Part shown: positions 794 to 16,103 of the stretch, piece by piece
How positions within the stretch are numbered: position 1 is the first letter of the stretch
How the letters are laid out: each line of letters opens with the position of its first letter
NCBI GenBank assembly: GCA_001800515.1
Contig: MGVN01000010.1
Coordinates: forward strand, 2,681 to 20,008
Length of the DNA stretch: 17,328 bases
Source of the DNA: Elusimicrobia bacterium RIFOXYB2_FULL_49_7
Lineage (GTDB): Bacteria; Fibrobacterota; OXYB2-FULL-49-7
Reading direction: 5' to 3'
The notes under the pieces: model-generated
The model's input: the letters and a program-made list of their open reading frames with translations, nothing else
Told to the model about the DNA's origin: nothing
Databases searched by the model: none
Translations under genes and position numbers: made by a program

Positions 794-1768
794 TTATTTT
801 CTTAAGAGTTTAAGTAAGTCGTCAAGGTCAACCGTTGCCAAACATTCACAAGTATCTGCTGCGCCATAGTATATTTTAACTTCCCCATTATCTTCCAAAA
901 TCATTCCTCCCGGGAATATCACATTTTTGCGAAACCCCGTCTGAGTTTCATACTGGGTCTCAGGCATCATCAAAGGTTCTTTATAAAGACTCTTTATTTT
1001 GTATGGATTAGTGAGATCCAGTAACATGAGTCCCATGGAATAACGCTTTCGCCACCCGGTCTCCCAACCATTTTTGCCGCGCTTATGATCAATATCCACG
1101 ACATGAAAGACAGTCAACCATCCGTCTTTCGTTTTGATGGGGGGGGCGCCCGGTCCAAGCTTGTCATTTGCCCATGAAACATCTTCAACCCCGAGCAATA
1201 ATGCGGAATTTCCCCAAAATAGGCAATCAGGAGAATTTGAAATCCATATATCGAACCGGTCCATTCCTCCACGGCTGTAAACAGGAAAGGGCCTCTCAAG
1301 TCGCATAAACAGGCCATTTAATTTTTCCGGAAAAAGAACCATATTTCTGTTGTCCGGAACCGTCATGGAAAGGACTTCAAATTTCTCAAAATCATCCGTT
1401 ACGGCAATGCCTCCCCTTATTCCATGAAAGGTATCTATTGCAAAACAAATGTAACACCGACCGTTAATGACCGTTAATCGCGGATCGTAAACACGTGTTA
1501 TTTCTTTGGAGATAAGATGGTTGAGAATGTTTTTTTCTTTATCGATATTCCATTTTATGCCATCATCGCTTATGGCAAGACCGAGACGTGTTCCGAAGGT
1601 TTTTCCTTCTTTGAATGTATCTTCAGTCAGCCCATAATCGCATCTGAATACCATGACATATTTGCCTTTGAATTTTGTAACCCCCGCGTTAAATGCAAGC
1701 GAGCATTCGTAGGGCACCGCCTGTGGGGATAAAACAGGATTGTCACTATAACGTTTTACGATATCCAT
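794..1768 (-). CDS. GH130 family beta-mannoside phosphorylase/hydrolase
   Basis: A 324-residue cytoplasmic-type protein without signal peptide, of normal family length. It shows the GH130 landmarks in order: NPVLSP (10-15), FNAGVTKFKGKYVMVFR (26-42), VYDPRLT with the presumed general acid D95, GGIAVTDDFEKFE, NRNMVLFPEK, PPIKTKDGWL, a long MLLDLTNPYKIKS blade, and the terminal KIYYGAADTCECLATVDLDD. GH130 enzymes mostly phosphorolyse or hydrolyse beta-1,2- or beta-1,4-mannosides, for example mannosyl-glucose to mannose-1-phosphate; sequence alone does not fix the substrate or tell phosphorylase from hydrolase. ATG 1768 is the natural start, although no Shine-Dalgarno is visible. The gene is divergent from the alkaline phosphatase, with 196 nt between. 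A weak -24/-12 match lies about 110 nt upstream. Confidence 0.9.
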   Translation of the reverse strand: MDIVKRYSDNPVLSPQAVPYECSLAFNAGVTKFKGKYVMVFRCDYGLTEDTFKEGKTFGTRLGLAISDDGIKWNIDKEKNILNHLISKEITRVYDPRLTVINGRCYICFAIDTFHGIRGGIAVTDDFEKFEVLSMTVPDNRNMVLFPEKLNGLFMRLERPFPVYSRGGMDRFDIWISNSPDCLFWGNSALLLGVEDVSWANDKLGPGAPPIKTKDGWLTVFHVVDIDHKRGKNGWETGWRKRYSMGLMLLDLTNPYKIKSLYKEPLMMPETQYETQTGFRKNVIFPGGMILEDNGEVKIYYGAADTCECLATVDLDDLLKLLRK

Positions 1769-1964: not shown

Positions 1965-3668
1965 ATGTGTTGGTTCAATCTGAGAACGATTTTATTAGCC
2001 GGTGTCTTTGCGATTTTATCCACGGTTGCATCGGGCGAAGCCGTCAGTGCTTCGGATCGGCTTACCTCGACTTTTAAAAACGTCATTCTCATGATTCCGG
2101 ACGGATGCGGAATTGCTCACTTCACCTTGGCTCGTTGGTATAAGGGAACTCCGTTGGCCTGTGATGCATTGAACGTTGCGTTGGTACGTACCTACTGTTC
2201 CAATAGTTATATCACGGATTCGGCCCCGGCTGCGACGGCGTATGCAACCGGGTACAAAAGTGAAAACAACTACATCAGTGTGCTGCCGGCCGTCTATGCC
2301 ATGCCGGGCATTACTTTGCCGGCCGGGAAGGAGAACATGCCGGTGGCCACCGTGCTGGAAGGTGCCCGTCTAAGCGGCCGTGCCACAGGCGTTGTTGCCA
2401 CCAGCATGACCTCCCATGCCACGCCGGCCGCCTTTACCTCTCACTGGTATGCACGCAGTAACGAGGCCATTCTCATGGAGCAGCAGGTATATCAGGGAGT
2501 GGACGTGTTATTAGGTGGCGGACGCAAACAGGTGATGACGCCTGTTGATTCTGGTGTACGACCGGACAATGAAAATCTGCTGGATACCTTGAAGGCACGC
2601 GGTTATTCCATTCTGACGACGCGGGAGGAATTGGCTGCATTGCCGTCCCATACGGGTAAGGTATGGGGGCAGTTTAATCTGGATGCCTTGAGCCGGGATT
2701 TTGATCGTTCTCTTCCCGTGTATCAGCATCAACCTTCGCTCGCTGACATGACTCAAAAGGCGATTACCCTGCTGTCGAACAGCAAAGCCGGACAGTCCAA
2801 GGGCTTTTTCCTGATGGTGGAGGGCAGCCAAGTGGATTGGGCCTCCCATGCCAATGAACCGGTCGGTGTTCTATCGGAATACCTCGCTTTTGACAGTGCC
2901 GTGGCGGTTGCTAAAAACTTTACGGAAACCAACGGCAAGACCCTGTTGCTGGTATTGTCGGATCATGATAATGGCGGCCTTTCCTTGGGGGGAAGCAGAA
3001 CAAACAGCACTTATTCGATCCGTCCCCTGGACAGTCTTTTGACGGCACCGCTTCGCAAGGCTACGCTGACAGGTGCCGGCATCAAGCTCCTGTTGGGCGA
3101 CGATCGTAGCAGCAATGCCATCATTCATGCACTCGGCACTTATTTCGGCATCACCGATCTGACCCCTGATGAAATCTCCACCGTTACCGCAGCCTCTGCC
3201 GGCAGAATGGAACATGTGCTGGGTACTCTGATGAGCAAGCGTACCGATATATCCTGGACCACCACCGGACATACCGGAAACGACGTACCGCTTTATTATT
3301 TGGGTACGAATGATCAGTTGAAAATCCTTCAAAATACCGATGTGGCTCGAATTTGCGCCAAAGCCATGAAAGTCGACTTGGATAAAGTGACCGACTCCCT
3401 TTTCCGCCGTGCGGATAAGTTGTTCGGCAACGCCACGTCGATGACGGTTGACACCGTCGGTTTCAACAATGCGAGCGGCTCGCTGACTGTTGTAATGAAC
3501 GGCAAAACCGCGATATTCCCTTTCAATAAGAATGAACTCATCGTGGATGGAAACAAACACCTGATGAACGGTCTGACGGTTTATTCCTTTCAAAATAATA
3601 CCGTTTATGTACCTGCTCAGGCACTGTCCATTTTAAAGGGCATCAGCGGCCGCCTCAAGAAAAAATAG
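1965..3668 (+). CDS. Exported PhoA-family alkaline phosphatase with C-terminal extension
   Basis: 567 residues. A signal peptide (about 1-24, hydrophobic core LLAGVFAILSTVASG) predicts export. The PhoA-type metal and catalytic residues are all present: D46 in MIPDG, nucleophile S86 in TDSAPAATAYATG, H151/T153 in SHATPAAF, E286 in MVEG, D291 and H295 in DWASHAN, D333-H334 in SDHDNGG, and H436 in GHTGNDVP. It should release phosphate from monoesters outside the cytoplasm using two zinc ions and one magnesium. Residues about 495-560 form an extra beta-rich domain (NGKTAIFPFN, NTVYVPAQAL) resembling the copper-amine-oxidase-N/stalk type seen on cell-surface enzymes; its role here is unknown. AAGGAGG (1951-1957) lies 7 nt before the ATG. 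I see no convincing Pho box. The gene converges on activator 1. Confidence 0.95.
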   Translation: MCWFNLRTILLAGVFAILSTVASGEAVSASDRLTSTFKNVILMIPDGCGIAHFTLARWYKGTPLACDALNVALVRTYCSNSYITDSAPAATAYATGYKSENNYISVLPAVYAMPGITLPAGKENMPVATVLEGARLSGRATGVVATSMTSHATPAAFTSHWYARSNEAILMEQQVYQGVDVLLGGGRKQVMTPVDSGVRPDNENLLDTLKARGYSILTTREELAALPSHTGKVWGQFNLDALSRDFDRSLPVYQHQPSLADMTQKAITLLSNSKAGQSKGFFLMVEGSQVDWASHANEPVGVLSEYLAFDSAVAVAKNFTETNGKTLLLVLSDHDNGGLSLGGSRTNSTYSIRPLDSLLTAPLRKATLTGAGIKLLLGDDRSSNAIIHALGTYFGITDLTPDEISTVTAASAGRMEHVLGTLMSKRTDISWTTTGHTGNDVPLYYLGTNDQLKILQNTDVARICAKAMKVDLDKVTDSLFRRADKLFGNATSMTVDTVGFNNASGSLTVVMNGKTAIFPFNKNELIVDGNKHLMNGLTVYSFQNNTVYVPAQALSILKGISGRLKKK

Positions 3669-3773: not shown

Positions 3774-6194
3774 TTAGAACAATTCCTCTTTTGAAATGCT
3801 AAACAGTTTGATTTTTCGAAAAAAAGTGGCTCTTGAAATCTTCGCCTCTTTCGCTGCTTTGTCAACGAAGCCCCCGTTTTTTCGCAAGAGATAAATAATA
3901 TGCGTACGCGTTAGGGCGCGAGGATTGCCAAAGGGGATCAAGTCAGGCACTATCGTATAAGAACGGTTTATTTTCATCCGGGAAAGGACGATGTTTTCAT
4001 TCCCGATCATTTTTTTATCGCAAAACAAGACCGCGTTTTGTACGACATTTTCCAATTCTCTAACATTACCCGGCCAATCGTAGGTCATGAGCTTTTGAAA
4101 ACTGTCCGGTGAAAAACCCCGGATGGAGCGCTTAAATTTATTGTTATAAATTTTCAGGAAATACGTGCATAAAGACGGGATATCCTCCTTGCGTTCGGAA
4201 AGGGCGGGCAACCGGAAGTTAACCGTATTCATCCGGTAAAAGAGATCCGCCCGAAACCGGCCCTTATCCACCAGTTCTTGCAGGGGAATATTGGTTGCGA
4301 CGATAATCCGCGTTTCCACTTTAATCTTTTTATTGCTGCCAATGTGTTCGAGCGTAAAATCCTGCAGAAAATGCAGCAGCTTTGTCTGGGCATTCATGGA
4401 AAGATTGCCGACCTCGTCTAAAAACACGGTCCCCTTATTTGCCTCTTCGAACTTTCCTCTGCGTGCCTGTACCGCGCCGGTAAAAGCACCTCTTTCGAAT
4501 CCAAAGAGTTCGCTTTCCAAAAGCGTTTCCGGCAATGCGGAGCAATCCACTTTGATAAAAGGCCCTCCGCAAAAAGGGCTGTTGATGTGAATATAATAGG
4601 CCAGGACTTCTTTTCCAGTTCCCGTTTTTCCATCAATCAGAATGGTGACCGGAGAAGCGGCAGCGACCTTTGCCTTTTCTTTGATTCGTAAAATATCCGG
4701 ACTCAGTCCAATCATCTCACGGTGTTCTTCTTTTATTTGCGCAGCGATGGCCTTAAATTTGTCGCGCTCGCGAAATGCCTTTTCCCGCTCCTCGGTCAGG
4801 GACTTTATGCTTTGCGTAAAATGCGAAACGTCATAGAAGACAAAGGTGTAATGGAATATGCCATCCACACGGGTGATGCGGGAATCGAGAAGCTGATTAA
4901 ATCGAACAACCCTTTCTCCGTTTTGGACGAGACATTCATTGGAGGGCTGCGGAGCAATGCGTTTTTTAGGCAAGGTAAATACCGTCACGCTTTCCAAAAG
5001 AAAACGAATCGGATTCTTTTGGGCATCGTTGTAAAGATACAGCCTGCCCGAGGGATTCTCAATACGGTCGAAATCCATATACCCAAGAAGCAATTTTCCA
5101 TTCAAAAAACAAGCCAATCGTTCACCGCGCAGAACCACGTCCATAACATAACGGCCGGGATGAATGACCTGCCTTAATTTTACATTTAGAACCGCTTCCC
5201 CTTCTTTTTTTAGAAGAAATTCTTTTTCTTCAGGAAGATAATTGAAGCAATATCCTTGGTAATCCGGGAACAAGGGACCCGTGCAGTCGTTTCCGGATAA
5301 GATGACACCGGGCAGATCATGGGTCGATGTTGAAAAAACGATCTTAATTTTAACGTCATGAGATGCCGTATTCAACGGAAAAACAAACGGCAGGAGTCCC
5401 CGATTTGTTGGACAAGCATTCCAATTCCAACCGTGCGCATCTTTTGTGATAAAATCGGGTTCCAGATATTTTTCGAATTCTTTTTCGGTCGTTTTGGAGA
5501 AATCAATTTGATAGGTTGTCTCCCAGTCTTCCTCTTTAACGACAAGATAGTCCTCTTCTTTCCCTTTTATCCGCTCAATGGGATTGGGCGATAGAATTGT
5601 TTCGATGGATTGCGACAATAAATGATCGGGCTGTTGTTCTTTGTTTGAAAAAAGATTGGCAAAACTCTTATTAAATCCTTGTATTATTCCCTGCTTATCC
5701 AGAAAAACCAAGGGGCTGTATTTATAATAAACGGTCCGCCGGACAAAGTCGTTGAATTTAATGATAGCCACCAGTCCCAGGGAGTCTACGTTCCAGAAGA
5801 ATATTCTGGAATAGTGAAGATTGGAATGGAAATCAAACAGTTTTTCGAATTCCTCATAGACGTTTTTGGACGGATACGATCGACGTGAATCCAGCAACCG
5901 TTCGGCTGATAAATAATCTTTATTTTGTCCGATTTTTAGGGCGATATCTGAAAGAGAGCGATTCGCTGGAAGATGATATAAATCGTGGATATTTCTCTTT
6001 AATATGGAATTAAAATCAAAATTGTATAATTCGTAATACTGATAAATGATTGCCTCAACAGAACCATTTTCAGCGATCTTTAATAGGGCGCCTAAATAAG
6101 TTAAATTGCTTCTTAAAAAAGGTATTAAGGAGGAACATATCTTGGTGCTAAGAAAAGCGTTGTAATTTCCCAACAGGGTTCCTTTTTTTGCCAT
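3774..6194 (-). CDS. Sigma-54-dependent transcriptional activator 1 with lectin-like insert
   Basis: 806 residues from ATG 6194 (a TTG immediately before it would add one residue; AAGGG 7 nt upstream favours the ATG). No signal peptide or membrane helix, so cytoplasmic. Residues about 1-155 are an unrecognised region shared with activator 2. About 158-200 looks like the first half of a PAS domain (PLVFLDKQGIIQGFNKSFANLF). About 280-409 is a beta-rich concanavalin/LamG-like segment (GVILSGND, LFPDYQGYCFNY, FLLKKEGEA, LACFLNGKLLLGYMDFD). About 420-460 resembles the second PAS half ending FVFYDVSHF. A coiled coil (about 460-495) leads to the AAA+ domain: Walker A GKTGTGKE (522-529), GAFTGA sigma-54 loop (569-574), Walker B VFLDE (590-594), DWPGNVREL. 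A Fis-type HTH ends the protein (about 762-796). It should remodel sigma-54 polymerase at nearby -24/-12 promoters; targets and ligand are unproven. Confidence 0.95.
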   Translation of the reverse strand: MAKKGTLLGNYNAFLSTKICSSLIPFLRSNLTYLGALLKIAENGSVEAIIYQYYELYNFDFNSILKRNIHDLYHLPANRSLSDIALKIGQNKDYLSAERLLDSRRSYPSKNVYEEFEKLFDFHSNLHYSRIFFWNVDSLGLVAIIKFNDFVRRTVYYKYSPLVFLDKQGIIQGFNKSFANLFSNKEQQPDHLLSQSIETILSPNPIERIKGKEEDYLVVKEEDWETTYQIDFSKTTEKEFEKYLEPDFITKDAHGWNWNACPTNRGLLPFVFPLNTASHDVKIKIVFSTSTHDLPGVILSGNDCTGPLFPDYQGYCFNYLPEEKEFLLKKEGEAVLNVKLRQVIHPGRYVMDVVLRGERLACFLNGKLLLGYMDFDRIENPSGRLYLYNDAQKNPIRFLLESVTVFTLPKKRIAPQPSNECLVQNGERVVRFNQLLDSRITRVDGIFHYTFVFYDVSHFTQSIKSLTEEREKAFRERDKFKAIAAQIKEEHREMIGLSPDILRIKEKAKVAAASPVTILIDGKTGTGKEVLAYYIHINSPFCGGPFIKVDCSALPETLLESELFGFERGAFTGAVQARRGKFEEANKGTVFLDEVGNLSMNAQTKLLHFLQDFTLEHIGSNKKIKVETRIIVATNIPLQELVDKGRFRADLFYRMNTVNFRLPALSERKEDIPSLCTYFLKIYNNKFKRSIRGFSPDSFQKLMTYDWPGNVRELENVVQNAVLFCDKKMIGNENIVLSRMKINRSYTIVPDLIPFGNPRALTRTHIIYLLRKNGGFVDKAAKEAKISRATFFRKIKLFSISKEELF

Positions 6195-6273
6195 CAAATA
6201 GCCCTTTATTTTTGACGCTGTAATTTAAGATATAATATTGAAATAATAAAATGCGACTAAACCAAAGGACGCG

Positions 6274-6333
6274 GCAAATCAAAAAATGCCGGTTATCCCG
6301 GATTTGCAATCAAATAAGAAATTTCTCTTATTT
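6274..6333 (-). terminator. Stem-loops at the end of the propeller operon
   Basis: AAATAAGA (6312-6319) and TCTTATTT (6326-6333) form an 8-bp A/T stem overlapping the stop codon of the upstream secreted protein. Beyond it GATTTGC (6307-6301) pairs with GCAAATC (6280-6274), enclosing a CCGG/CCGG mini-stem. Neither is followed by a long U-run on the minus strand. Together they are the best candidates for ending the operon before activator 1. Confidence 0.35.
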
Positions 6334-9207
6334 CAAATAAATCAGCCTGTCCGTCATTACCCGGTTTTCCGTTCTTAAAACAGCATAATAGACCCCGGAA
6401 GTAATTTCACGGGTCGGCACCCAGACAATTCGATAGCTTCCGGCCTTCTGTTCTCCTTTGGCCAATTCCTTCACCAGCCGCCCCTGTATTGTATATATCT
6501 TCAAAGAGAGAGGGCTTTGAGAAGTAAGCCTATATTGGAATGTTGCCTTTTGTGCAAAAGGATTTGGCTGACCGGTCAAGATACTTGCAGTCGCTAAGAC
6601 CGCTTTATTTTCGGATAGAACAGGATCGCCAAAAACGGTGGTACTTTGATTCCCTTGGCCGTCATCCACTACCAGTGTTGCGCTTTTTACATTCTGGCAG
6701 ACAATGCGATCACCTTCGGCATGAACCGTTTCGCCGTTATCTGCGGTTATCTCCCAAAAATAGCGCAAGTAATCGTTTTCTGCATCTGTTGTCCCGCTGG
6801 CATCCAGTCGGAAAGTCCCGCCTGTTGAATCCGCGGTCAGCGAAATCTCAGGTGCCTGATTATGCGTGGTCGTCTTTATCGCGTCCCGGGGATCGGTATA
6901 ATTGTAAAATTCCAGAGCATCGTTATCGCCATCGTTGTCCGTATCTGCATTCTTGGGGTTTGTACCCAGTAAAACAACTTCCTGGCCGTCCCACAAACCA
7001 TCGCCATCGCTGTCCGGATTATCCGGGTCGGTTTCGGCAACGGTTTCCGAGCCGTTTTCCAGTCCGTCATAATCCGGATCCAATGCAACTTCTTCGGAAT
7101 CTATGGGGATGCGCAAGAATTTCCAGCCTTCTTTACCGTTCGCGGTATCTTCGTAAACAAGGGGCACGTGAGAAGGGGGAGAAACCGGCGGAAGTTTAAA
7201 AGCCAGATTTTGGCCATGGATGAGTTCGACTGCATCAGAAAAGCGGTCCTGGTTAATGAAATACTTTTTATAATTCAGGGATCCTTTTGTCTTATTTTTC
7301 CAGATAAACCACAATCGTTCACCGCACAACGTCATCTGTGTGTTCGTGATGGTGTCTGATGAAGTTGCGAGCACATTCTTGGACAGGGTGACGCCGTTCT
7401 TAAAGATATAAAGTGTAATACTGCCAGAACCCGCGGTATTTCCGGAACATAAAAACAGGGTACTGTCTTTATAATTTACAGCAGAAAGTCGTTGGCCATC
7501 CCAGCCGACATTGGCAAATTTGGCAAAGGGGGTCCATTGCGTTCCATCTCCCAACGAATAATACAATATCCCGCTGGTTTTAATGATGCACATGACCTGG
7601 TTTCGATAGGGCGCCACACAGACCGGATTGCCCAGATAGCAAATCACGGACTCTTCCTGTCCATTGTTCCAGATGCCGGATCGTTGTCCTAAAGTATATT
7701 GCCAGCGCATCCCTCCGTCATCCGAATAACTGGCATAAATACTGGTGGATTGAATGGGATTAAAATGATTGCTGGTATAAATTGCCCATATTCTGCCGGA
7801 AGGTAATACGGTTGCTTTTAAGCTTCCTCCGCACATGCGTGGAATATCCGATACGACGATACTGGGAGGACGTTGTGGAGGTGCTTGCCGAAATGTATTA
7901 TCAGGATAAACGACCCATTTGTCATTTTGTGCCATGATTTTATAAAAGTGATGAAAAGTGGTGGCAACCCCATCCCCGGGGGTGTAATCTGCGCACCAGC
8001 CCTGGGTAATGAAATAGCCCACTCCGCGCAAATAATTATCACCAAATCCCCAAGCCTGTACGGTCCCTCGCATGGTGCTTCCAAACGGAATAGGGTATTC
8101 TCCGGCTACGGAATCAGATCGCCAGGTTCTTCCTTCATCCACAGAACCAATCCATGCTCTGTCACTGTGATCCCCTCCTGGCGCCGTATTGGGTTCCGGA
8201 GGTGAAGACCAGTATTCATACCCCTTCAAACGTTCAATCATGCCGTATTTAAGATTATCAAAAGGAGCAATGCCCTGCACATAAGCCTCATTCCGATAGG
8301 CTGACGCCGCTTCTTCCACGATGATTGCAGGTTCGGTCTGAGTCAGAGGACCGGTGACCCTGTTCATGATCACCGGTGTTGGCGGGGGCTCTACCGGAGG
8401 TTTATAAATAGAAGTCGAAAGCCAAGGTCCCAATGGGCTGGGATCAATGAGCGGCGGAAAAACAGGTGACACATCTTTGGTGACAAGACGAATATTGTCA
8501 ATATAGATTTCGGTGACACCTTTGACGTCTCTAACCGCAATCTTAAAATCCTTTATATCACTTAAGTCCAGTCTTGACACCCAATCCATATCCTTTATCG
8601 GAACACAAACAGTATAAAATTGACTAGGCTCCACCTCGTAAAAACGAGGAGATGAAGGTCTGTATTTTCCATGAAGACTAACCTTCAGCATGATTTTTGC
8701 CGTCGTTGTTTTAACATCAAAATAGACATAGTCGTAGCCGGACCAATCTTGCAAATCTGTCGGCAGTTTATCAATCACATGAAACAATGCGAATATCGTG
8801 CTAAACCGATCCGTTCCCCAATCCAATGGCCCCAGCCATTCACCTCCATTGGCCCGTGTGGAATCAAAAATCTTTTCTCCGCTGATTGCCGCCCAAGATT
8901 GATAACGGTAAGCCTGTCTTCTGAATATTTTGTTGGTCGGTACCGTGGAGGCGAAAATTTCATGACAAAGCGTCCATGCTCCTTGCGTTGCGACCGTTGG
9001 ATCATGCCGGATAAGGATTCCATTACTATAGGGGATGGTATAGACGATTTCATTCGAGTCTCCCTTGCCGGCATTGATGCTCAGCGGCCAGGTCGTCATT
9101 TCTTCCTGTTCAAAACCACAGAATAGTTTTTCTGCGGAAAAGACGGAAGTCAGGATGCTGAGAATAGCCAGGAGTGCCATTCTGATGCGATTGTTGTAAA
9201 AATGCAT
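6328..9207 (-). CDS. Secreted Asp-box beta-propeller protein with TSP3-type calcium repeats, PKD-like domain and T9SS-style sorting domain
   Basis: 959 residues from ATG 9207. A TTG at 9219 is in frame but falls inside the GGAGGT ribosome site (9212-9217), so ATG is the start. A signal peptide (1-24) is followed by a carbohydrate-binding-module-like jelly roll (about 28-245, ending VTEIYIDNIRLV). A proline-rich linker (about 249-280) precedes a beta-propeller region (about 285-705) with Asp boxes SVDEGRTW (355-362) and SDDGGMRW (495-502). Thrombospondin-3-like DxDxDG repeats (709-773) should bind calcium. A PKD/cadherin-like domain (about 782-857) and a type A sorting domain (about 878-959: GQPNPF, LKIYTIQGRLV, SGVYYAVL) follow. 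The catalytic FRIP arginine motif of true sialidases is not evident, so glycan binding or a lyase-like role is as likely as hydrolysis. It starts 15 nt after the stop of the next gene, hence one operon. Confidence 0.88.
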   Translation of the reverse strand: MHFYNNRIRMALLAILSILTSVFSAEKLFCGFEQEEMTTWPLSINAGKGDSNEIVYTIPYSNGILIRHDPTVATQGAWTLCHEIFASTVPTNKIFRRQAYRYQSWAAISGEKIFDSTRANGGEWLGPLDWGTDRFSTIFALFHVIDKLPTDLQDWSGYDYVYFDVKTTTAKIMLKVSLHGKYRPSSPRFYEVEPSQFYTVCVPIKDMDWVSRLDLSDIKDFKIAVRDVKGVTEIYIDNIRLVTKDVSPVFPPLIDPSPLGPWLSTSIYKPPVEPPPTPVIMNRVTGPLTQTEPAIIVEEAASAYRNEAYVQGIAPFDNLKYGMIERLKGYEYWSSPPEPNTAPGGDHSDRAWIGSVDEGRTWRSDSVAGEYPIPFGSTMRGTVQAWGFGDNYLRGVGYFITQGWCADYTPGDGVATTFHHFYKIMAQNDKWVVYPDNTFRQAPPQRPPSIVVSDIPRMCGGSLKATVLPSGRIWAIYTSNHFNPIQSTSIYASYSDDGGMRWQYTLGQRSGIWNNGQEESVICYLGNPVCVAPYRNQVMCIIKTSGILYYSLGDGTQWTPFAKFANVGWDGQRLSAVNYKDSTLFLCSGNTAGSGSITLYIFKNGVTLSKNVLATSSDTITNTQMTLCGERLWFIWKNKTKGSLNYKKYFINQDRFSDAVELIHGQNLAFKLPPVSPPSHVPLVYEDTANGKEGWKFLRIPIDSEEVALDPDYDGLENGSETVAETDPDNPDSDGDGLWDGQEVVLLGTNPKNADTDNDGDNDALEFYNYTDPRDAIKTTTHNQAPEISLTADSTGGTFRLDASGTTDAENDYLRYFWEITADNGETVHAEGDRIVCQNVKSATLVVDDGQGNQSTTVFGDPVLSENKAVLATASILTGQPNPFAQKATFQYRLTSQSPLSLKIYTIQGRLVKELAKGEQKAGSYRIVWVPTREITSGVYYAVLRTENRVMTDRLIYLK

Positions 9208-9222
9208 CTTTACCTCCAATAC

Positions 9223-11451
9223 TTATTTTGCCAAAGAAATTCTTTTTGTCAATACTTTGTTGCCGCAACTAAGTTTGACAAAATAGACACCGGAAGGATG
9301 ATTTTTAGTATTCCATACGACGGTGGTCGTATTGGCTAAAGCCCGTCCATCCCTATTTGCTATCTCAGATGTAAAGTCCTTAACCGGCTTTCCGGTAATG
9401 TCGTACACTCGTAATTGGATGGCGGCTTTTTTATTGGCGCGCCATATTCCTCTATCGACCGCAATGGTAACAGAGGAATGAAACGGTGAAGGAAAGGTTT
9501 GGAGGGCTAATGGTGAAGGAAGCGCTTTTGTCCGGGCTGCAATACCGACAATACTTTCAGGCAGGGGCAGGCGATAGGAGCGAATATTATTTTCCCCCGA
9601 ATAGCTCCAATTGAGCGGAACAAAATTGACAGGCGAGGTTCTTGGTATGGCAAGTGTCTTAATACTGCCTGTATCCGTGACCGCCAATTGCGGTTCACTC
9701 CAGGTGCTTTCCTGCAAATAACGATAATAAATGGAATGTTTGTCTGTGGAAACCCAAAAAACAAGAAGGGTACTGTCTCCGCAACAGGTTAATTGGCCTG
9801 TCTGGCCTGAAAGCGATGTTGTCCAGGAGGCACCATCCCAAACCAGGATGGCGCTTGGGTCGCCGATCACGGCAAAAATCCGTCCATCCAGCGTGCCGAG
9901 CGCGGAAACAAGCGTTTTCCCTTGGGGCAGATGTTCGGGGGCACTCCAGGCGGAAGCGGTGTCAAAACGATCCCACGGAATCTTATCCGTACTATTCTGT
10001 TGGAGAAATGAAGCATACTGGTCGTCAAAGGTCTGCTGGCGAAAGGTCGAAAAGTACACATAATCCTTGATTTGGGATTTATACCATATGCATCCAACAT
10101 CATTCTGTCCCATAGAAACAAGCATGGGGATGTGGGTGCCGCTGCCCTCTACGGAAAAACTGCCATTACTGCCGCCATGCTGCCAAGTATGCCCGCCATC
10201 ATCGGAAAAGCGGGCAACGATATGTGTTCGGCCAAAGCGGTTATAATGTTCCCAGGTGGCCCAAATGCGGCCGTTGGGTAGCCGAATGACATCAAATCTT
10301 TCCGGGCAATGACGCACATCCTGATCGATGATTACCGGACTTTCGGCTGTCCAGGAAGTGCCGTTAAAGGCGATTCTACGGAAATAGACATCCGAAGGAC
10401 TACCGCCTCCGGCGCAGAGCGTTTGGTAAAGCCCAAGGACTTCGGTGGGGGAACAGTAGAAACCATGCCGATTTGGCGTATTATTGCCGCTGGCAATGAG
10501 TGTATAACTGGTTCCTGCAATAAGACCGCTCCAGGTGCTTCCGCCATTATTGCTAACCCGAATACTCATGGGAGGCGTAGTAGAGACATTGACCAAATAT
10601 TCATTATCAAATGCTGCACAACCGCGATCCTGCTTGTGCATGGTATTGCTCCAACCACCATCCCCATTGCCGATAATGGTATTAACCGGCTCTTCCGAAG
10701 GAATCGCCGAAATATCCGGTGTGGTGGATAATGCGGCTAATGCTTCGGGACGGGTTGTATTATTGTTGTTGCCGGGCGGATCGGGTAACATTACCCAAGC
10801 AGTGGTATCTTGGATAATGGAAAATTGAGAAGCAGCCCCTTCCGGTGCCAGACGGAAATTATCAATATAAAGCTTAGTATTATTGCCAAGTCGAGTGGTT
10901 AAGATGTAGAAAGAGGCAACATGGCTGCGATCCAGGAGTTTGAGACTTTCAGCGGCCATCAAATCGTATTCCAGGGTGACCCATTCTCCGGCAGGTACCA
11001 GATAGGTTCTATTCATGCTTTGCGGATGAGGGGTCAAATTATCTTCCACTTGAACAATAATCGTTGCGGATGCCAAAGTGGATTTAATGTCTATCCAGAA
11101 TTTCCGATAACCGGACCAGTTGCTGCCCATTGTCCGGACATGCCATCCGGAAGTGCGAATGAGCTTGTAGCGATAAATATTTGCCCAACTTAGACTACCG
11201 CTCTTTAGGTCTGAAGCAGCCCAACCGGAAGAAAAATCATTCCATTTTGAATTTAAACCTTCGCTTTTCTCATCGGTTGTAATGGCAAAGGAGACAGGGT
11301 AGCCCGATGGTGCCGCCCAAATTGTAGAATCGACGCCATCGCTCAATTCCCATCCAAAGAGACGAAAGACCCCCTCTTCTGCAGCCATTGACATAGAAAC
11401 AAATAAACTCAACGCTAATGCAGATACCAAAACAAAGAAATAATGACGCAT
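9223..11451 (-). CDS. Secreted Asp-box beta-propeller protein with T9SS-style sorting domain
   Basis: 742 residues, first gene of a two-gene operon. A signal peptide (1-23) ends in MSMAAEE. A carbohydrate-binding-like jelly roll occupies about 28-202 (FGWELSDG, SGYRKFWIDIKS, KLYIDNFRLA). A flexible Asn/Thr/Pro stretch (about 222-255) leads to a beta-propeller with Asp boxes SNNGGSTW (300-307) and SDDGGHTW (416-423) and blade motifs such as LPNGRIWATW. The last 95 residues form a type A sorting domain (LQTFPSPFHSSVTIAV, LRVYDITGKPVK, HPSGVYFVKL) that in FCB bacteria routes proteins through the Por/T9 system to the cell surface. It has the same plan as its operon partner but lacks the calcium repeats and PKD domain. 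AAGGAG (11457-11462) lies 5 nt before the ATG, and a -24/-12 promoter is immediately upstream. Enzyme activity cannot be called. Confidence 0.88.
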   Translation of the reverse strand: MRHYFFVLVSALALSLFVSMSMAAEEGVFRLFGWELSDGVDSTIWAAPSGYPVSFAITTDEKSEGLNSKWNDFSSGWAASDLKSGSLSWANIYRYKLIRTSGWHVRTMGSNWSGYRKFWIDIKSTLASATIIVQVEDNLTPHPQSMNRTYLVPAGEWVTLEYDLMAAESLKLLDRSHVASFYILTTRLGNNTKLYIDNFRLAPEGAASQFSIIQDTTAWVMLPDPPGNNNNTTRPEALAALSTTPDISAIPSEEPVNTIIGNGDGGWSNTMHKQDRGCAAFDNEYLVNVSTTPPMSIRVSNNGGSTWSGLIAGTSYTLIASGNNTPNRHGFYCSPTEVLGLYQTLCAGGGSPSDVYFRRIAFNGTSWTAESPVIIDQDVRHCPERFDVIRLPNGRIWATWEHYNRFGRTHIVARFSDDGGHTWQHGGSNGSFSVEGSGTHIPMLVSMGQNDVGCIWYKSQIKDYVYFSTFRQQTFDDQYASFLQQNSTDKIPWDRFDTASAWSAPEHLPQGKTLVSALGTLDGRIFAVIGDPSAILVWDGASWTTSLSGQTGQLTCCGDSTLLVFWVSTDKHSIYYRYLQESTWSEPQLAVTDTGSIKTLAIPRTSPVNFVPLNWSYSGENNIRSYRLPLPESIVGIAARTKALPSPLALQTFPSPFHSSVTIAVDRGIWRANKKAAIQLRVYDITGKPVKDFTSEIANRDGRALANTTTVVWNTKNHPSGVYFVKLSCGNKVLTKRISLAK

Positions 11452-11488
11452 AAAAACTCCTTATGTTTAATAATTTATATAAATATAT

Positions 11489-11504
11489 TGCGAATCTTGT
11501 ACCA
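11489..11504 (-). promoter_or_regulatory. Sigma-54 (-24/-12) promoter of the beta-propeller operon
   Basis: Minus-strand TGGTAC-N5-TCGCA (11504-11489) matches the consensus TGGCAC-N5-TTGCA at 9 of 11 positions, with GG (11503-11502) and GC (11491-11490) exactly 10 nt apart. Transcription would begin near 11478, giving a leader of about 27 nt that just accommodates the ribosome site. It is the best -24/-12 match I found, and it is placed next to an activator gene. Confidence 0.65.
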
Positions 11505-11597
11505 TATTTTACTGAATGCTATTATTTATGCAAAGCAATGTTATATAAAGAGATATGGTTTAAGCGTAAAAATAGAAAGATATATTAATGGTTGTGT

Positions 11598-11625
11598 GAG
11601 TCAAGAAATGATACTCAAATGACTC
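11598..11625. promoter_or_regulatory. Inverted repeats, possible activator-binding site (UAS)
   Basis: GAGTCA (11598-11603) and TGACTC (11620-11625) are perfect inverted repeats. Inside them TGAGT (11597-11601) also mirrors ACTCA (11613-11617). The centre is about 108 nt upstream of the -24 element of the propeller operon, a typical distance for an enhancer-binding regulator site, and directly before the activator 2 gene, allowing autoregulation. Placement supports the idea; no binding evidence exists. Confidence 0.35.
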
Positions 11626-11682
11626 TTGTGTGCCGCTTATGTTGCAATTAAGAATAGTGAGAGATTATATTATTTAAATCGT

Positions 11683-14082
11683 ATGGAAGCCAGAAACTTT
11701 TTATTATCAAAGAAAATACAAATCCACTTTATGGATCTTATTTCAAGATTTATAAATTTTGTAGGCTTGGTCGTGAAAATCGAAGAAGATGGGGAAATTT
11801 GCGAGATCCCTTTTCATGAGCAACTTTTTAGTTTCAATTTTAATCATCTGCTAAAGAAAAATATCCGGGATTTATATATCTTGCCTACCGAAAAATCGTT
11901 AACAAAACTGGCAATGACACTTATTCAACAGGAAGACACTTTTATAAATGAAGCTTACTTTGACCCAAAGTTTTGTTATCCGTCAAGAAATTTATATGAA
12001 GACCTCGATACTTTTTTTGAATTTTACTCGGACATCCCTTTTTCCCGCCTTTATTTATGGCATATGGATGGCTATGGTATATTAGGGGTTATCGAATTCA
12101 ATGAATTCTTTCGACGAAGCGTGTATTATAAGCCTTATCCCCTGATTATTTTGGATCAACAGAGTAAAATCAAGGGTTTTAATGAGAAGTTTTTGAATCT
12201 TTTTCCCACAAGGCCTCAGTTCCCACAGACACTACTTTCCCAGAATATTGAAACTTTTATACGACCCAACCCTTTAGACATCATTCGGGGACATGGGCTT
12301 GATTCTACGGTAGAACAACATGAGAAGGGAATTGATGTCTTTACGATTGATTTTTCACGGGCAACTTCGGAAGAAATTTCTGTGAATTTGATAATGACCG
12401 ATCTTTCAACGTTTGCCGGAGGTTGGCGCTGGACGCCTCAAGAAAAACAACAAGGCTTATTGTCATTTGTTAAGCCGCTGAATTTTAATGAGTTAGATTG
12501 TCGGATATCTATACAACTCAAGGAGAGTGAAGGCACATTTCCTTCCATGATTTTGGGAGGAAGCCAATGGGATAAAAAATTATTTCCGGATTATAAAGGA
12601 TATTTGGTAGGTTTTGATTCGGCTGAACAACAGTATATTGTTAAGAAAGAAGGGGAACGTGTACATGTGGTTGCCGGTGCTTTTCCAGCTGACAAGAAAA
12701 AACATCATATCGAAATAGTGAAAAGATACGATCACCTTTTATTATGGGTGGACAATACGCTGATGATCCGCTATCGGGATCCGGATTTTAAAGAGAATCC
12801 GGAGGTTTTTTTATATCTTTATTCCGATACTGCAGGCAAGGGGATAATAACCCTCGATTCTCTGCAATTGACCGTCTTTCCTCGTAAACGACGTCTGGAA
12901 TTGCCGATAAATCGGTGTGTCATGCACCAAAATGGAGTGGATACGACCGTTGAGTTTACGCAACTTGCGGACAGCAGAATCGCTCGAATTTACAGCCGTT
13001 TTTATTATGTGTTTGTCTTGCATGATGTGTCGTCTTTTACACAGAGCATTAAATCGTTGAAAGATGAAAGAGAAAAGGCGTTTTTGGAACGGAATAAATT
13101 CAAGGCATTAGCCATGCAGGGGAATATTGAACAGGCGGAAATGGTTGGCGAAAGCCTGAAATTGACCGGCATTAAGGAGAATGCTAAGATTGCTGCGGCT
13201 TCTTCGGTTACCGTACTGATCGAGGGAAAAACAGGCACCGGAAAAGAGGTGCTGGCGCATTTTATTCACAAGCATAGTCTTAACTCCCAAGGTCCTTTTG
13301 TAAAAGTAGACTGTTCCTCATTACCAGGATCTTTGCTTGAGAGCGAGCTATTTGGCTTTGAAAAAGGAGCCTTTACCGGTGCAGACCATTCGCGAAAAGG
13401 CAAACTGGAGGAAGCGGAAGGCGGCACGCTCTTTTTGGATGAAATCGGGAACTTGTCGGCCAATGCACAGATAAAATTGCTCAATTTTTTGCAGGATTTT
13501 ACACTGGAGCACATCGGTAGCAATAAAAAAGTAATGGTACATACGCGGATTATTGCTGCCACCAATGAAACTTTGTCAGAACTTGTAAAACAGGGAAAAT
13601 TTCGTGCTGATCTAATGTATCGACTGAATATCGTCAATTTCCAATTACCCATGTTGCAGGAACGCAAAGAAGATATTCCTTATTTATGCACCCATTTTCT
13701 GCAAATTTTCAATAGACAATTTAACCGCTCCATCAAAGGATTTACTGCGGAAAGCTTTCAGAAGCTAATTGAATACGACTGGCCGGGCAATATTCGAGAG
13801 CTGGGAAATGTGATACAACGTGCGGTTTTATATTGCGAGAAGAAAATGATCGATAAAGGGCATCTTAGCTTTATGTCTGAGAGAGCATTACCGACTCATG
13901 AACCATTGACACTCATCATTCCTAAGGGAAATTCCAGATTACTGAAACGCGAGCATATTGTCTTATTATTGAAAAAAAACAATGGTGTTGCCAAATACGC
14001 AGCCAGCGAAGCGGGTATTTCTCGAGCAACGCTATTTCGGAAGATTAAGAAATATAAAATTACCAAGGCGGAATGTTTTTAG
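11683..14082 (+). CDS. Sigma-54-dependent transcriptional activator 2 with lectin-like insert
   Basis: 799 residues if started at ATG 11683; an in-frame TTG at 11626 would add 19 residues, but these have no counterpart aligning well in the paralogue. Neither has a visible ribosome site. It is collinear with activator 1 over the whole length: shared N-terminal region (about 1-150), PAS-like first half (YPLIILDQQSKIKGFNEKF, about 152-172), concanavalin-like segment (about 271-401; LFPDYKGYLVGF, LLLWVDNTLMIRYRDPDF), second PAS half (about 410-452, ending YVFVLHDVSSF), coiled coil, AAA+ domain with GKTGTGKE (515-522), GAFTGA (562-567), LFLDE (583-587) and DWPGNIREL, then a Fis-type HTH (about 756-791). 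It is divergent from the propeller operon and upstream of the beta-helix gene, both of which have -24/-12 sites. It is more AT-rich than activator 1. It is expected to activate one or both neighbours. Confidence 0.94.
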   Translation: MEARNFLLSKKIQIHFMDLISRFINFVGLVVKIEEDGEICEIPFHEQLFSFNFNHLLKKNIRDLYILPTEKSLTKLAMTLIQQEDTFINEAYFDPKFCYPSRNLYEDLDTFFEFYSDIPFSRLYLWHMDGYGILGVIEFNEFFRRSVYYKPYPLIILDQQSKIKGFNEKFLNLFPTRPQFPQTLLSQNIETFIRPNPLDIIRGHGLDSTVEQHEKGIDVFTIDFSRATSEEISVNLIMTDLSTFAGGWRWTPQEKQQGLLSFVKPLNFNELDCRISIQLKESEGTFPSMILGGSQWDKKLFPDYKGYLVGFDSAEQQYIVKKEGERVHVVAGAFPADKKKHHIEIVKRYDHLLLWVDNTLMIRYRDPDFKENPEVFLYLYSDTAGKGIITLDSLQLTVFPRKRRLELPINRCVMHQNGVDTTVEFTQLADSRIARIYSRFYYVFVLHDVSSFTQSIKSLKDEREKAFLERNKFKALAMQGNIEQAEMVGESLKLTGIKENAKIAAASSVTVLIEGKTGTGKEVLAHFIHKHSLNSQGPFVKVDCSSLPGSLLESELFGFEKGAFTGADHSRKGKLEEAEGGTLFLDEIGNLSANAQIKLLNFLQDFTLEHIGSNKKVMVHTRIIAATNETLSELVKQGKFRADLMYRLNIVNFQLPMLQERKEDIPYLCTHFLQIFNRQFNRSIKGFTAESFQKLIEYDWPGNIRELGNVIQRAVLYCEKKMIDKGHLSFMSERALPTHEPLTLIIPKGNSRLLKREHIVLLLKKNNGVAKYAASEAGISRATLFRKIKKYKITKAECF

Positions 14083-14102
14083 TCTGAACCGTAACAAATT
14101 GG

Positions 14103-14126
14103 AATTCTCAATACTGCTCCAGAATT
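14103..14126. other. Inverted repeat between activator 2 and the beta-helix gene
   Basis: AATTCT (14103-14108) and AGAATT (14121-14126), 12-nt loop, followed by GTTT. It lies about 20 nt after the activator 2 stop, so it could be a weak terminator. It also sits about 125 nt upstream of a -24/-12 candidate, where an activator site would be. The sequence does not decide. Elsewhere in 14083-14285 I see only the promoter and leader of the next gene. Confidence 0.25.
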
Positions 14127-14237
14127 GTTTCGGAATAGTTCGTGAGGTAAGAATTGAAACATTGTATTTGGATTGCCAGATGTTTGTAATATGATGATTA
14201 GTAATGCGTTAGGACATGGCGGTTGGGTAATAATAGA

Positions 14238-14253
14238 AGGTTTGATTTTTGCT
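14238..14253 (+). promoter_or_regulatory. Candidate sigma-54 (-24/-12) promoter of the beta-helix gene
   Basis: AGG (14238-14240), exactly 10 nt, then GCT (14251-14253). The -12 half (TTTTTGCT) is a full match to the TTGCW consensus; the -24 half matches only at GG. The predicted start near 14263 leaves a leader of about 23 nt with GGAGG (14277-14281), the same geometry as the propeller operon promoter. Confidence 0.5.
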
Positions 14254-14285
14254 TATTATAAATCATAATAAAAATTGGAGGCAAG

Positions 14286-15893
14286 ATGCTTTTTATCAGT
14301 AAATTTAAAATTATAATTATTTATATCTTATTTATGTTTGCCACACAAATAAATGCGGCAACGAATGTATATTATTCGGTGGGTCAAAATACCACCGATC
14401 ATTCGAGCGGGGGAGATGTTAATATTGTTTCTGGTATAGCGACTTTTACCATACCCCAAACTGCTACCAGCCTTGGCGTTGGTGATAGGCTGACGGCAGG
14501 CGGGAATATTTATTACATTGCTGCAAAAATTTCCACGAGTCAATGGTATGTCGTTACCCAACTTGGTTTACTGCCAAATGACTTATCTTCAACAGCGGTT
14601 ACCTCAATTGCCCATGAATATATTCATTTACAAGATGCTCTTTTAGGAGCGACCGACTCAGTTCATGTCAATAGCAAGAATTTAGTGTCGGCGAATGTTA
14701 TTCTTAACATTCCTTGTTATGATGACTCTGGACCAGATACAATGCACGTTAGCCTTAATACGGCTAGTTGTACTACAGGGACAAATAATTATATCAATAT
14801 CTATACCCCATATGACACTTTAACGGAAGTTAATAAAAGGCAGAGGCATAATGGTATTGCAACATCTGGCTATACATTGATGGGTGTTGTTAGTTATCAA
14901 TATATAATGGTTATTAATCTGAAAAATCCAAATGCATTTGTTAGAATAATAGGCTTAATAATAACCTCTGATAAAACTCGTGGGGTTAATACAGCACTTT
15001 GGACAGCATGTAATGCGGAAATAGCCTATAATATTGTACATGATATAAACCCAATATATGGCTCAACGTGTAAGGGAATAGACGTAGGTAGTCATTATCC
15101 CAGTAATCCCGCACCAATCGTTCATAATAATATTTGCTATAATATTCCACACAGCGGTATCCAAGTCGGTACTTTTGCACTATACGCTAAAGTTTATAAT
15201 AACACAACCGTAAATAATGGTCGATATGGTATAACTGTAACAATAGACATCCCTATGGGGTATTTGAAAAATAATTTATCATGTAATAATGGAACAGGAG
15301 ATTTCACGCCGGTTGAATTGAACGGAAGTTATAAAACTTTTGATTATAATGCTTCTTCTGATAGCACCGCAAACAAGTTTATTGGCACAGGAAACAGGAT
15401 AAATCAAACATTTACTTTTGTAGATTATGATGGCGAAGATTTTCGTCTTGCTCCTACCGACACAGGGGCAAGAGATTGTGGAATGTCCGATCCAGGAGCA
15501 GGGGCGTTTTTCGATGATATAGAGGGTCAAACTCGTCCTTCTGGTTCTGCCTGGGATATTGGAGCCGATGAATATTTGGACACCACAATAGTAAACGTTG
15601 AGGGGCATAAAAAAAAGCCGGTAAAAATATTCTCATTGCAGAATTATCCAAATCCTGCTAATCATTCAACCACGGTACGCTTCACTCTTAAAACTGTGCA
15701 GCATGTGTCGATTCGTCTTTTCAGCTTGAACGGTAGACTGGTTGAAACCTTTGCCGATGGTCCTTTTGGTTTCAGTAATGTTCAGAATGAAGTTGTTTGT
15801 CGATTTAGTCATAATACGCCCGCAGGTATTTATTATTTGAGAATGGAGTCCGGCAAATGTGCAGAAGTGAAAAAGATTGTGGTGATAAGATGA
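14286..15893 (+). CDS. Secreted parallel beta-helix protein with T9SS-style sorting domain
   Basis: 535 residues. A signal peptide (1-25) has a long hydrophobic core (IIIIYILFMFA) and ends in INAAT. The body (about 100-430) has the Asn-rich, short-repeat look of a right-handed beta-helix (pectate-lyase-like) fold: IAYNIVHDI, VHNNICYNI, AKVYNNTTVNNGRYGI, YLKNNLSCNN. It closes with the DFRLAPTDTGARDCG and GSAWDIGADEY motifs common at the end of secreted beta-helix proteins. Residues about 448-535 are a type A sorting domain (LQNYPNPANHSTTVRF, IRLFSLNGRLVE, PAGIYYLRM). No catalytic residues can be assigned; a polysaccharide lyase or binding protein is possible. GGAGG lies 4 nt before the ATG. 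The passenger-coding part is very AT-rich (28-32% GC in two 60-nt lines counted) while the sorting domain is about 45%, suggesting a mosaic gene. Confidence 0.85.
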   Translation: MLFISKFKIIIIYILFMFATQINAATNVYYSVGQNTTDHSSGGDVNIVSGIATFTIPQTATSLGVGDRLTAGGNIYYIAAKISTSQWYVVTQLGLLPNDLSSTAVTSIAHEYIHLQDALLGATDSVHVNSKNLVSANVILNIPCYDDSGPDTMHVSLNTASCTTGTNNYINIYTPYDTLTEVNKRQRHNGIATSGYTLMGVVSYQYIMVINLKNPNAFVRIIGLIITSDKTRGVNTALWTACNAEIAYNIVHDINPIYGSTCKGIDVGSHYPSNPAPIVHNNICYNIPHSGIQVGTFALYAKVYNNTTVNNGRYGITVTIDIPMGYLKNNLSCNNGTGDFTPVELNGSYKTFDYNASSDSTANKFIGTGNRINQTFTFVDYDGEDFRLAPTDTGARDCGMSDPGAGAFFDDIEGQTRPSGSAWDIGADEYLDTTIVNVEGHKKKPVKIFSLQNYPNPANHSTTVRFTLKTVQHVSIRLFSLNGRLVETFADGPFGFSNVQNEVVCRFSHNTPAGIYYLRMESGKCAEVKKIVVIR

Positions 15894-16028: not shown

Positions 16029-16103
16029 TGGGCGATGAGGGGTTCGAACCCCCGACCCCCTGCTTGTAAGGCAGGTGCTCTAAACCAACTGAGCTAATCG
16101 CCC
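16029..16103 (-). tRNA. tRNA-Val (anticodon TAC)
   Basis: On the minus strand a full cloverleaf: acceptor GGGCGAT/ATCGCCC with discriminator A, D arm GCTC/GAGC, anticodon stem CCTGC/GCAGG with loop CTTACAA (anticodon TAC, valine codon GTA), and T arm GGGGG-TTCGAAC-CCCTC with one G-U. CCA is not encoded. Its 3' end faces the AT-rich accessory stretch, a position where integrative elements often insert. Confidence 0.96.

Follow-up and report, generated by a model that had tools for sequence, protein, structure and literature searches.

The window, the whole 17,328-nucleotide stretch of DNA analysed here, encodes two paralogous sigma-54 activators, act1 and act2, whose sensors, going by a predicted model, apparently consist of a PAS-like domain and, after it, a PAS domain with its sheet interrupted by an L-type lectin-like domain. 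The activators are interleaved with three secreted proteins carrying T9SS tails, and activators with the same sensor recur among T9SS-tail genes in a Fibrobacteres MAG (MAG-297). On the reading we favor, act1 and act2 are soluble, one-component, probably carbohydrate-responsive activators that, judged by gene placement, would locally control secreted surface proteins.

Activators and secreted proteins of the window

On the reverse strand, sec2 (9223..11451), sec1 (6328..9207, starting 15 nt after sec2) and act1 (3774..6194) form a run that act1 closes. On the forward strand, act2 (11683..14082) is divergent from sec2, and sec3 occupies 14286..15893. The ATG used for act1 lies 3 nt inside the longest ORF, which opens with TTG at 6197; the act2 start corresponds to the first residue of the database protein P0001 (799 aa), the longest ORF beginning at 11626. 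A hydrophobic N-terminal stretch is present in each secreted protein, and all three pass the 23-bit cut-off of the T9SS-tail model TIGR04183 (sec1 31.1, sec2 29.8, and sec3 38.0 bits). A TSP3 repeat was found in sec1, and sec1 and sec2 both match the BNR propeller weakly. In PDB sequence searches (E<=1), none of the three secreted proteins had an informative relative, and a tRNA was the only Rfam family in the window at gathering score.

The activators share 49% identity over 797 columns and match PF00158 (Sigma54_activat AAA+) at 203.5 bits for act1 and 208.2 bits for act2 (cut-off 20.2), in agreement with the initial annotation, which had described two sigma-54 paralogues interleaved with three sorting-domain proteins. 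Both contain Walker A and the GAFTGA loop, which reads GSFTGA in two of the five MAG activators. The Fis-type HTH (PF02954, cut-off 22) scores 22.5 bits in act2, just over the cut-off, and 12.9 bits in act1, below it. The AAA+ domain, GAFTGA, and, going by act2, a putative Fis-type end are features of NtrC/NifA-type activators, from which act1 and act2 differ in the predicted sensor, where an L-type lectin-like domain would be inserted into a PAS domain. No receiver domain (E<=0.1), kinase domain, or membrane segment was detected in either protein. Neither activator reached a curated equivalog cut-off among the best 25 families listed, out of 28 in one case and 31 in the other.

SusR/HTCS and ECF systems control polysaccharide genes; HTCS and SusR regulators have membrane-anchored sensors, and HTCS proteins also a kinase domain. 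The window resembles these systems in that a regulator adjoins polysaccharide-related surface-protein genes. However, act1 and act2 are of the sigma-54 type and soluble, and an assignment to HTCS/SusR was ruled out given that they lack both membrane segment and kinase domain. Assignment to PrsR, the PEP-CTERM regulator, was likewise ruled out, as the TIGR02915 scores (276.4 and 286.5 bits) fall below the cut-off of 502.6 and a receiver domain is missing.

A predicted PAS domain with a lectin-like insert

In act2 the first half of the putative second PAS domain, PAS-B, corresponds to residues 161–226 (12106..12303, forward strand), the lectin-like domain to residues 228–422 (12307..12891), and the second PAS-B half to residues 423–470 (12892..13035), ahead of the coiled coil; the model places strands at 430–467 and a helix at 469–498. 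By alignment to act2, the lectin-like domain of act1 lies approximately at 4965..5546 on the reverse strand. The coiled coil is predicted to link the sensor to the AAA+ ring, with a Fis-type DNA-binding end. The putative N-terminal PAS-like domain (PAS-A) would cover residues 30–165.

The lectin part of act2 is modeled as a jelly-roll of the L-type lectin/ConA-like fold, which supports the glycan-binding-like sensor fold proposed earlier. Sequence identity to known lectin-fold structures (1oq1, ERGIC-53, legume lectins, GH16) is 6–14%, and here the fold would lie inside a cytoplasmic regulator. Searched alone against PDB sequences, the lectin part gave a single match, a CBM66 levanase at E 0.83.

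PAS-type stretches flank the lectin part on both sides. Joined PAS-B halves were built for nine members, of which eight entered alignment A6 and five were scanned against Pfam, with the first halves of three as control. The best match to a curated PAS model was to PAS_9 (23.1 bits, under the cut-off of 27). In three of the five members the PAS match reaches the end of the profile; it halts midway in one and is absent in act2. For L022:5732, joining brought no gain with PF00989, which scored 18.4 bits with the half and 17.7 bits after joining. HMM searches of the five MAG activators gave no significant match for the second PAS half (0 of 5) or for the N-terminal PAS-like domain (best E 0.057).

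Promoter-like sites

The initial annotation had placed −24/−12 matches before both secreted-protein units, with leaders of about 23–27 nt, and none with correct spacing before the activator genes. Both matches exist. The sec2 site (11489..11504, reverse strand; TGGTACAAGATTCGCA) has its GC 38 nt from the start codon, giving a leader of ~27 nt if transcription starts 12 nt past the GC; the possible sec3 site (14238..14253, forward strand; AGGTTTGATTTTTGCT) lies 33 nt from the start codon, with a leader of ~22 nt on the same basis. The chance of a GG-N10-GC 25–60 nt from the start is 0.001 in the sec2 spacer and 0.044 in the sec3 spacer. With a −24/−12 weight matrix, the sec2 site scores 12.9 bits (0/300 shuffles) and the sec3 site 6.2 bits (p 0.137). 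From these scores the sec2 site alone appears convincing as a promoter, and the sec3 site is marginal. The second part of the claim held, the spacers of act1 and act2 containing no GG-N10-GC. Matrix scores as high as these also occur inside coding DNA, and across the whole window the plain consensus with up to three mismatches is no commoner than chance (41 found, 43.3 expected).

A scan for GG-N10-GC at 25–65 nt, suggested with the initial annotation, found the motif before 3 of 12 T9SS genes (two of these three being the sec2 and sec3 sites that prompted the test) and before none of the 7 activators or the 9 other genes. In the MAG loci, nine genes have a T9SS tail or a borderline one, and the canonical site precedes only one of them, an ORF whose start is doubtful and which lacks a signal peptide. 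The looser GG-N10-G[CA] precedes 5 of 12 cargo genes (0/500 shuffles), but was picked after the sites had been seen and is not counted as evidence. As enhancer candidates, the spacers share no dyad and no 9-nt word, save one AT-rich word in two spacers.

Family distribution, neighborhoods, and models of control

The sensor is rare, with five matches in searches of 5.8 billion proteins, act2 itself among them; repeated searches returned the identical five. As act1 and the MAG-297 activators were also missed there, absence from the protein searches means little. The sensor was found again in five activators at three loci of MAG-297, and the AAA+ domains alone group these with the window activators in a tree (100/99). 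The AAA+ scan that revealed MAG-297 used two short patterns, and the family may therefore be wider than seen. Within the searches made, the lectin-PAS activators appear only in Fibrobacterota-like DNA. Sensor pattern scans of viral and GTDB contigs gave no relative, and no plasmid match was found for the act2 sensor or sec2. Run without a positive control, the sensor alignment matched none of 40 genomes of the L020 phylum (Sumerlaeota), 82 of the L037 phylum, or 8 assorted genomes. Across 395 genomes from the phylum to which L047, a Crocinitomicaceae MAG, belongs (Bacteroidota), it gave two matches, both limited to part of the PAS stretch of histidine kinase-like proteins. P0004, which looks chimeric, was kept out of all alignments; P0003, lacking its N-terminus, was omitted from A1 and A3 and included in A4; L005:9528, cut by a contig end, was omitted from A6 and the tree; and an ORF was obtained for seven of eight outgroup loci. 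No description of the family was found in the literature searched, the scope of which left out preprints and most subscription journals.

At all four loci (the window and three in the MAG), T9SS-tail genes adjoin the activators or sit within two genes. The co-occurrence expected in relatives was thus seen at three more loci, all from one MAG, and the sample is small. The immediate non-activator neighbors carry a T9SS tail in 7 of 9 cases. Of the 7 activators, 4 form a divergent pair with a T9SS-tail gene. In the MAG, the activator paralogues have differing recognition helices and each stands at its own cluster.

In the mechanism we propose, the ligand of the lectin-like domain would be a sugar taken up by the cell, probably an oligosaccharide freed at its surface. 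The signal would pass through the PAS halves and coiled coil, the AAA+ ring would remodel sigma-54 polymerase, and the genes nearby, which are often divergent and encode surface proteins exported by T9SS, would be turned on. Divergent from sec2, act2 may act as a standing sensor, and act1, which closes the sec2-sec1-act1 run, may amplify or refine the response by feedback. The proposal that a lectin-like sensor reads imported sugar and its activator switches on neighboring T9SS-cargo genes has, in our estimate, an even chance of being correct. The local sigma-54 circuit of the initial annotation gains from the same-sensor activators found among T9SS-tail genes elsewhere, and is weakened by the marginal sec3 site, the missing common enhancer, and the scarcity of sites in the MAG.

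The activators might control the adjacent secreted genes in response to a signal other than a sugar. In that case the PAS domains would detect a metabolite or the redox state, and the role of the lectin-like fold would lie in protein binding or dimerization. The PAS-type stretches on either side of the lectin part are consistent with this, likeness of fold proves no function, identity to lectins is 6–14%, and no transporter was recognized among the window genes. However, of the eight columns that are invariant in the sensor alignment, four sit within the lectin part, which is also the least conserved domain between act1 and act2 (33% identical, compared with 67% for AAA+), as would befit a part that changes ligand, and polysaccharide-related genes occur among the neighbors; we consider a non-sugar signal rather unlikely. 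Chance placement, in a genome rich in T9SS genes and sigma-54 activators whose real targets lie elsewhere, would fit the canonical site missing from eight of nine MAG cargo genes, the lack of an enhancer, and the AraC-type regulator included in locus L012. Against it stand the good sec2 promoter inside a divergent spacer and the neighbor and divergence counts. Were genes independent, such counts would be unlikely even with T9SS genes making up 30%, although neighboring genes are not independent; this explanation too seems unlikely.

Like PrsR, the putative regulator of PEP-CTERM proteins, the activators might serve a general surface-protein or biofilm regulon rather than the clusters they adjoin. 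Proteobacterial PEP-CTERM genes have in common a −24/−12 motif with a profile that agrees with that of the activator PrsR (PMC1569441), and pepA requires RpoN1 (PMC9850573). Like the PEP-CTERM/EpsH system with PrsK-PrsR and a sigma-54 box (PMC1569441), the window would tie a sigma-54 activator to surface proteins with C-terminal sorting domains. However, PrsR is a response regulator paired with a kinase, whereas act1 and act2 have no receiver domain and the window no kinase. The window also has T9SS tails rather than PEP-CTERM, and a lectin-like sensor. Given also the low PrsR-model scores and the several MAG paralogues with differing recognition helices at separate clusters, control of a general regulon is improbable. 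If the proposed local control is true, it would join PEP-CTERM/PrsR as the second example of sigma-54 control linked to C-terminal sorting-domain proteins, and the sensors known in sigma-54 activators would come to include a lectin fold that seems to sit within a PAS domain.

Fibrobacter is a cellulose degrader. The genome paper of Fibrobacter succinogenes calls the transcriptional control of its cellulase genes an unanswered question, and notes recognizable regulators by just a few cellulase clusters, including one sigma54-like regulator (PMC3079729). Within the same phylum, that regulator similarly lies close to a gene for polysaccharide degradation; in contrast to act1 and act2, it is described as two-component (PMC3079729). 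It is tempting to speculate that Fibrobacterota have their own control of polysaccharide utilization, with expanded soluble sigma-54 activators, a PAS sensor with a lectin domain, one imported glycan per paralogue, an often divergent T9SS cluster for each, and a second paralogue nearby or in the operon providing feedback; this generalization is tentative, and we hold it to be somewhat doubtful. If true, the recurring activator-cargo module would give direct entry to the question of control in Fibrobacterota, with regulator, promoter, and targets named. It suggests, though it does not yet prove, how Fibrobacter relatives could switch on polysaccharide-handling machinery. At locus L005, an activator faces a flagellin gene rather than a T9SS gene, and a further putative AraC-type regulator is present.

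Gene order and products in the window

At its left edge the window holds the end of a BatA/VWA-type gene. A GH130-type phosphorylase-like gene (794-1768, minus strand) and an alkaline phosphatase gene (1965-3668, plus) lie directly left of the activator and secreted-protein cluster, which runs act1 (3774-6194, minus), sec1 (6328-9207, minus), sec2 (9223-11451, minus), act2 (11683-14082, plus), sec3 (14286-15893, plus). A tRNA gene (16029-16103, minus) lies just right of sec3, followed by a DUF374-type gene that runs past the right end. Given the gaps between sec2 and sec1 (15 nt) and between sec1 and act1 (133 nt, containing no terminator-like site), a single sec2-sec1-act1 transcript is plausible.

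The initial annotation was right in its basic observation of sigma-54 activators, secreted proteins with T9SS tails and promoter matches. Sec1, sec2 and sec3 each have an N-terminal hydrophobic stretch and a C-terminal T9SS tail scoring over the TIGR04183 cut-off; none of the three has an enzyme domain at cut-off. At 23% identity across 584 columns, sec1 and sec2 are distant paralogues, and both match BNR propellers weakly.

The activators act1 and act2 are 49% identical over nearly their full length. Identity is lowest in the lectin-like part (33%) and the N-terminal PAS-like part (PAS-A, 34%), and highest in the AAA+ domain (67%). As their recognition helices are nearly the same (SRATFFRKIK and SRATLFRKIK), the two may use a common enhancer and respond to different signals.

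An unusual activator family

Searches of 5.8 billion proteins matched five, act2 itself among them; one relative, P0003, comes from a Fibrobacterota MAG. Together with the MAG-297 proteins described below, P0003 is the basis for regarding the window as Fibrobacterota-like. The metagenomic P0004 is probably an assembly chimera, judging from its sequence: its start resembles P0002, while its end differs from P0002 and has a stretch in common with P0005. Scanning GTDB contigs for a 55-residue stretch of the AAA+ domain yielded 50 loci, in which a sensor HMM identified the architecture in five ORFs, all from Fibrobacteres MAG-297 (L012:8288, L022:3185, L022:5732, L005:7106 and L005:9528, the last cut). 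The recognition helices vary among these paralogues, consistent with separate targets.

Single-part HMMs built from close relatives of the window activators matched the MAG-297 proteins unevenly: the lectin part in four of five, the first half of the second PAS domain (PAS-B) in three (one at E 0.028), the second half in none, and the N-terminal part weakly (E 0.057 and 0.098). Because of this part-by-part result, the claim of a lectin-like domain inserted into PAS-B is weaker for the MAG-297 relatives. In a tree of AAA+ domains alone, and thus independent of the sensor, the eight sensor-bearing rows form one group (100/99), and the seven outgroups fall outside it. The architecture is more unusual than initially reported, and no description of the family was found in the literature searched. 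In structural comparison, the sensor's top match is 1oq1, YesU of the Bacillus rhamnogalacturonan cluster.

Neighborhoods at four loci

Co-occurrence of such activators with sorting-domain genes recurs at three MAG-297 loci (L005, L012 and L022), all of one other genome. L012 has four genes whose tails score over cut-off, L022 has three and L005 has one, with a second L005 gene just under (22.1 bits). Neighbors at these loci include PcRGLX-type proteins and NHL and Kelch propellers; a GH130-like protein among the neighbors scores under its cut-off. Three PcRGLX-type proteins carry T9SS tails (L012:5178-8138, minus; L012:13616-16408, minus; L022:8212-11475, plus), and their coincidence with the YesU match is perhaps fortuitous.

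Across the window and the MAG-297 loci, T9SS tails occur in seven of nine immediate non-activator neighbors, the other two being the window's alkaline phosphatase and an L005 flagellin. Four of seven activators (act2 with sec2, the L012 activator and both L022 activators) form divergent pairs with a T9SS gene. The respective probabilities are 3e-6 and 2e-4 at an assumed T9SS share of 10%, and 0.004 and 0.012 at 30%; they depend on that share and treat genes as independent, though T9SS genes cluster. Three of the four loci have two activators, interleaved in the window, convergent at L022 and tandem at L005.

Beside the L012 T9SS genes lies an AraC-type regulator of 720 residues (L012:16534-18696, minus). 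It has an extended N-terminal part and, close to the HTH, a hydrophobic segment, and may be a rival candidate for control of this locus. The L005 flagellin (L005:5500-7086, minus; PF00669 and PF00700) faces activator L005:7106 and contains a zinc-peptidase-like HEMTH stretch in its middle part; it resembles flagellinolysin.

Promoters and a candidate local circuit

The −24/−12 sites previously proposed before sec2 and sec3 are both present, the former good and the latter marginal. The sec2 site scores 12.9 bits, matched by 0 of 300 shuffles (matrix weights not fitted); the chance of a site at that distance is 0.001 in this spacer, whose G+C content is 25%. The sec3 site has a matrix p of 0.137 (unfitted weights) and a chance of 0.044. 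One promoter is convincing and one possible. Neither activator gene has GG-N10-GC in its spacer.

With GG-N10-GC required 25-65 nt from the start, sites precede 3 of 12 T9SS genes at the four loci (0.45 expected, P 0.008), two of the three having prompted the test; none precedes the seven activators (0.27 expected) or nine other genes (0.35 expected). Sec2 and sec3 account for two, and only one site lies beyond the window, before L012:2479, an ORF without a signal peptide.

The proposal of a local sigma-54 circuit has real but limited support at the sequence level: recurrence in one other genome and one good promoter speak for it, but the sec3 promoter is marginal. Such a circuit would be soluble and one-component. 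An imported sugar would be sensed by the lectin-like domain inside PAS-B, and the signal would pass through a coiled coil to the AAA+ ring, which at the cargo promoter would act on sigma-54 polymerase. As the last gene of its operon, act1 would provide feedback.

The closest precedent found in print is PEP-CTERM/PrsR (PMC1569441, PMC9850573), which likewise combines sigma-54 control with sorted surface proteins. In contrast to PrsR, act1 and act2 lack a receiver domain and fail the PrsR model. In the Fibrobacter genome paper, cellulase regulation is left open and one sigma54-like regulator is named near a GH9 gene (PMC3079729); the authors of a proteome study propose that F. succinogenes enzymes carry T9SS-type tails (PMC6851124).
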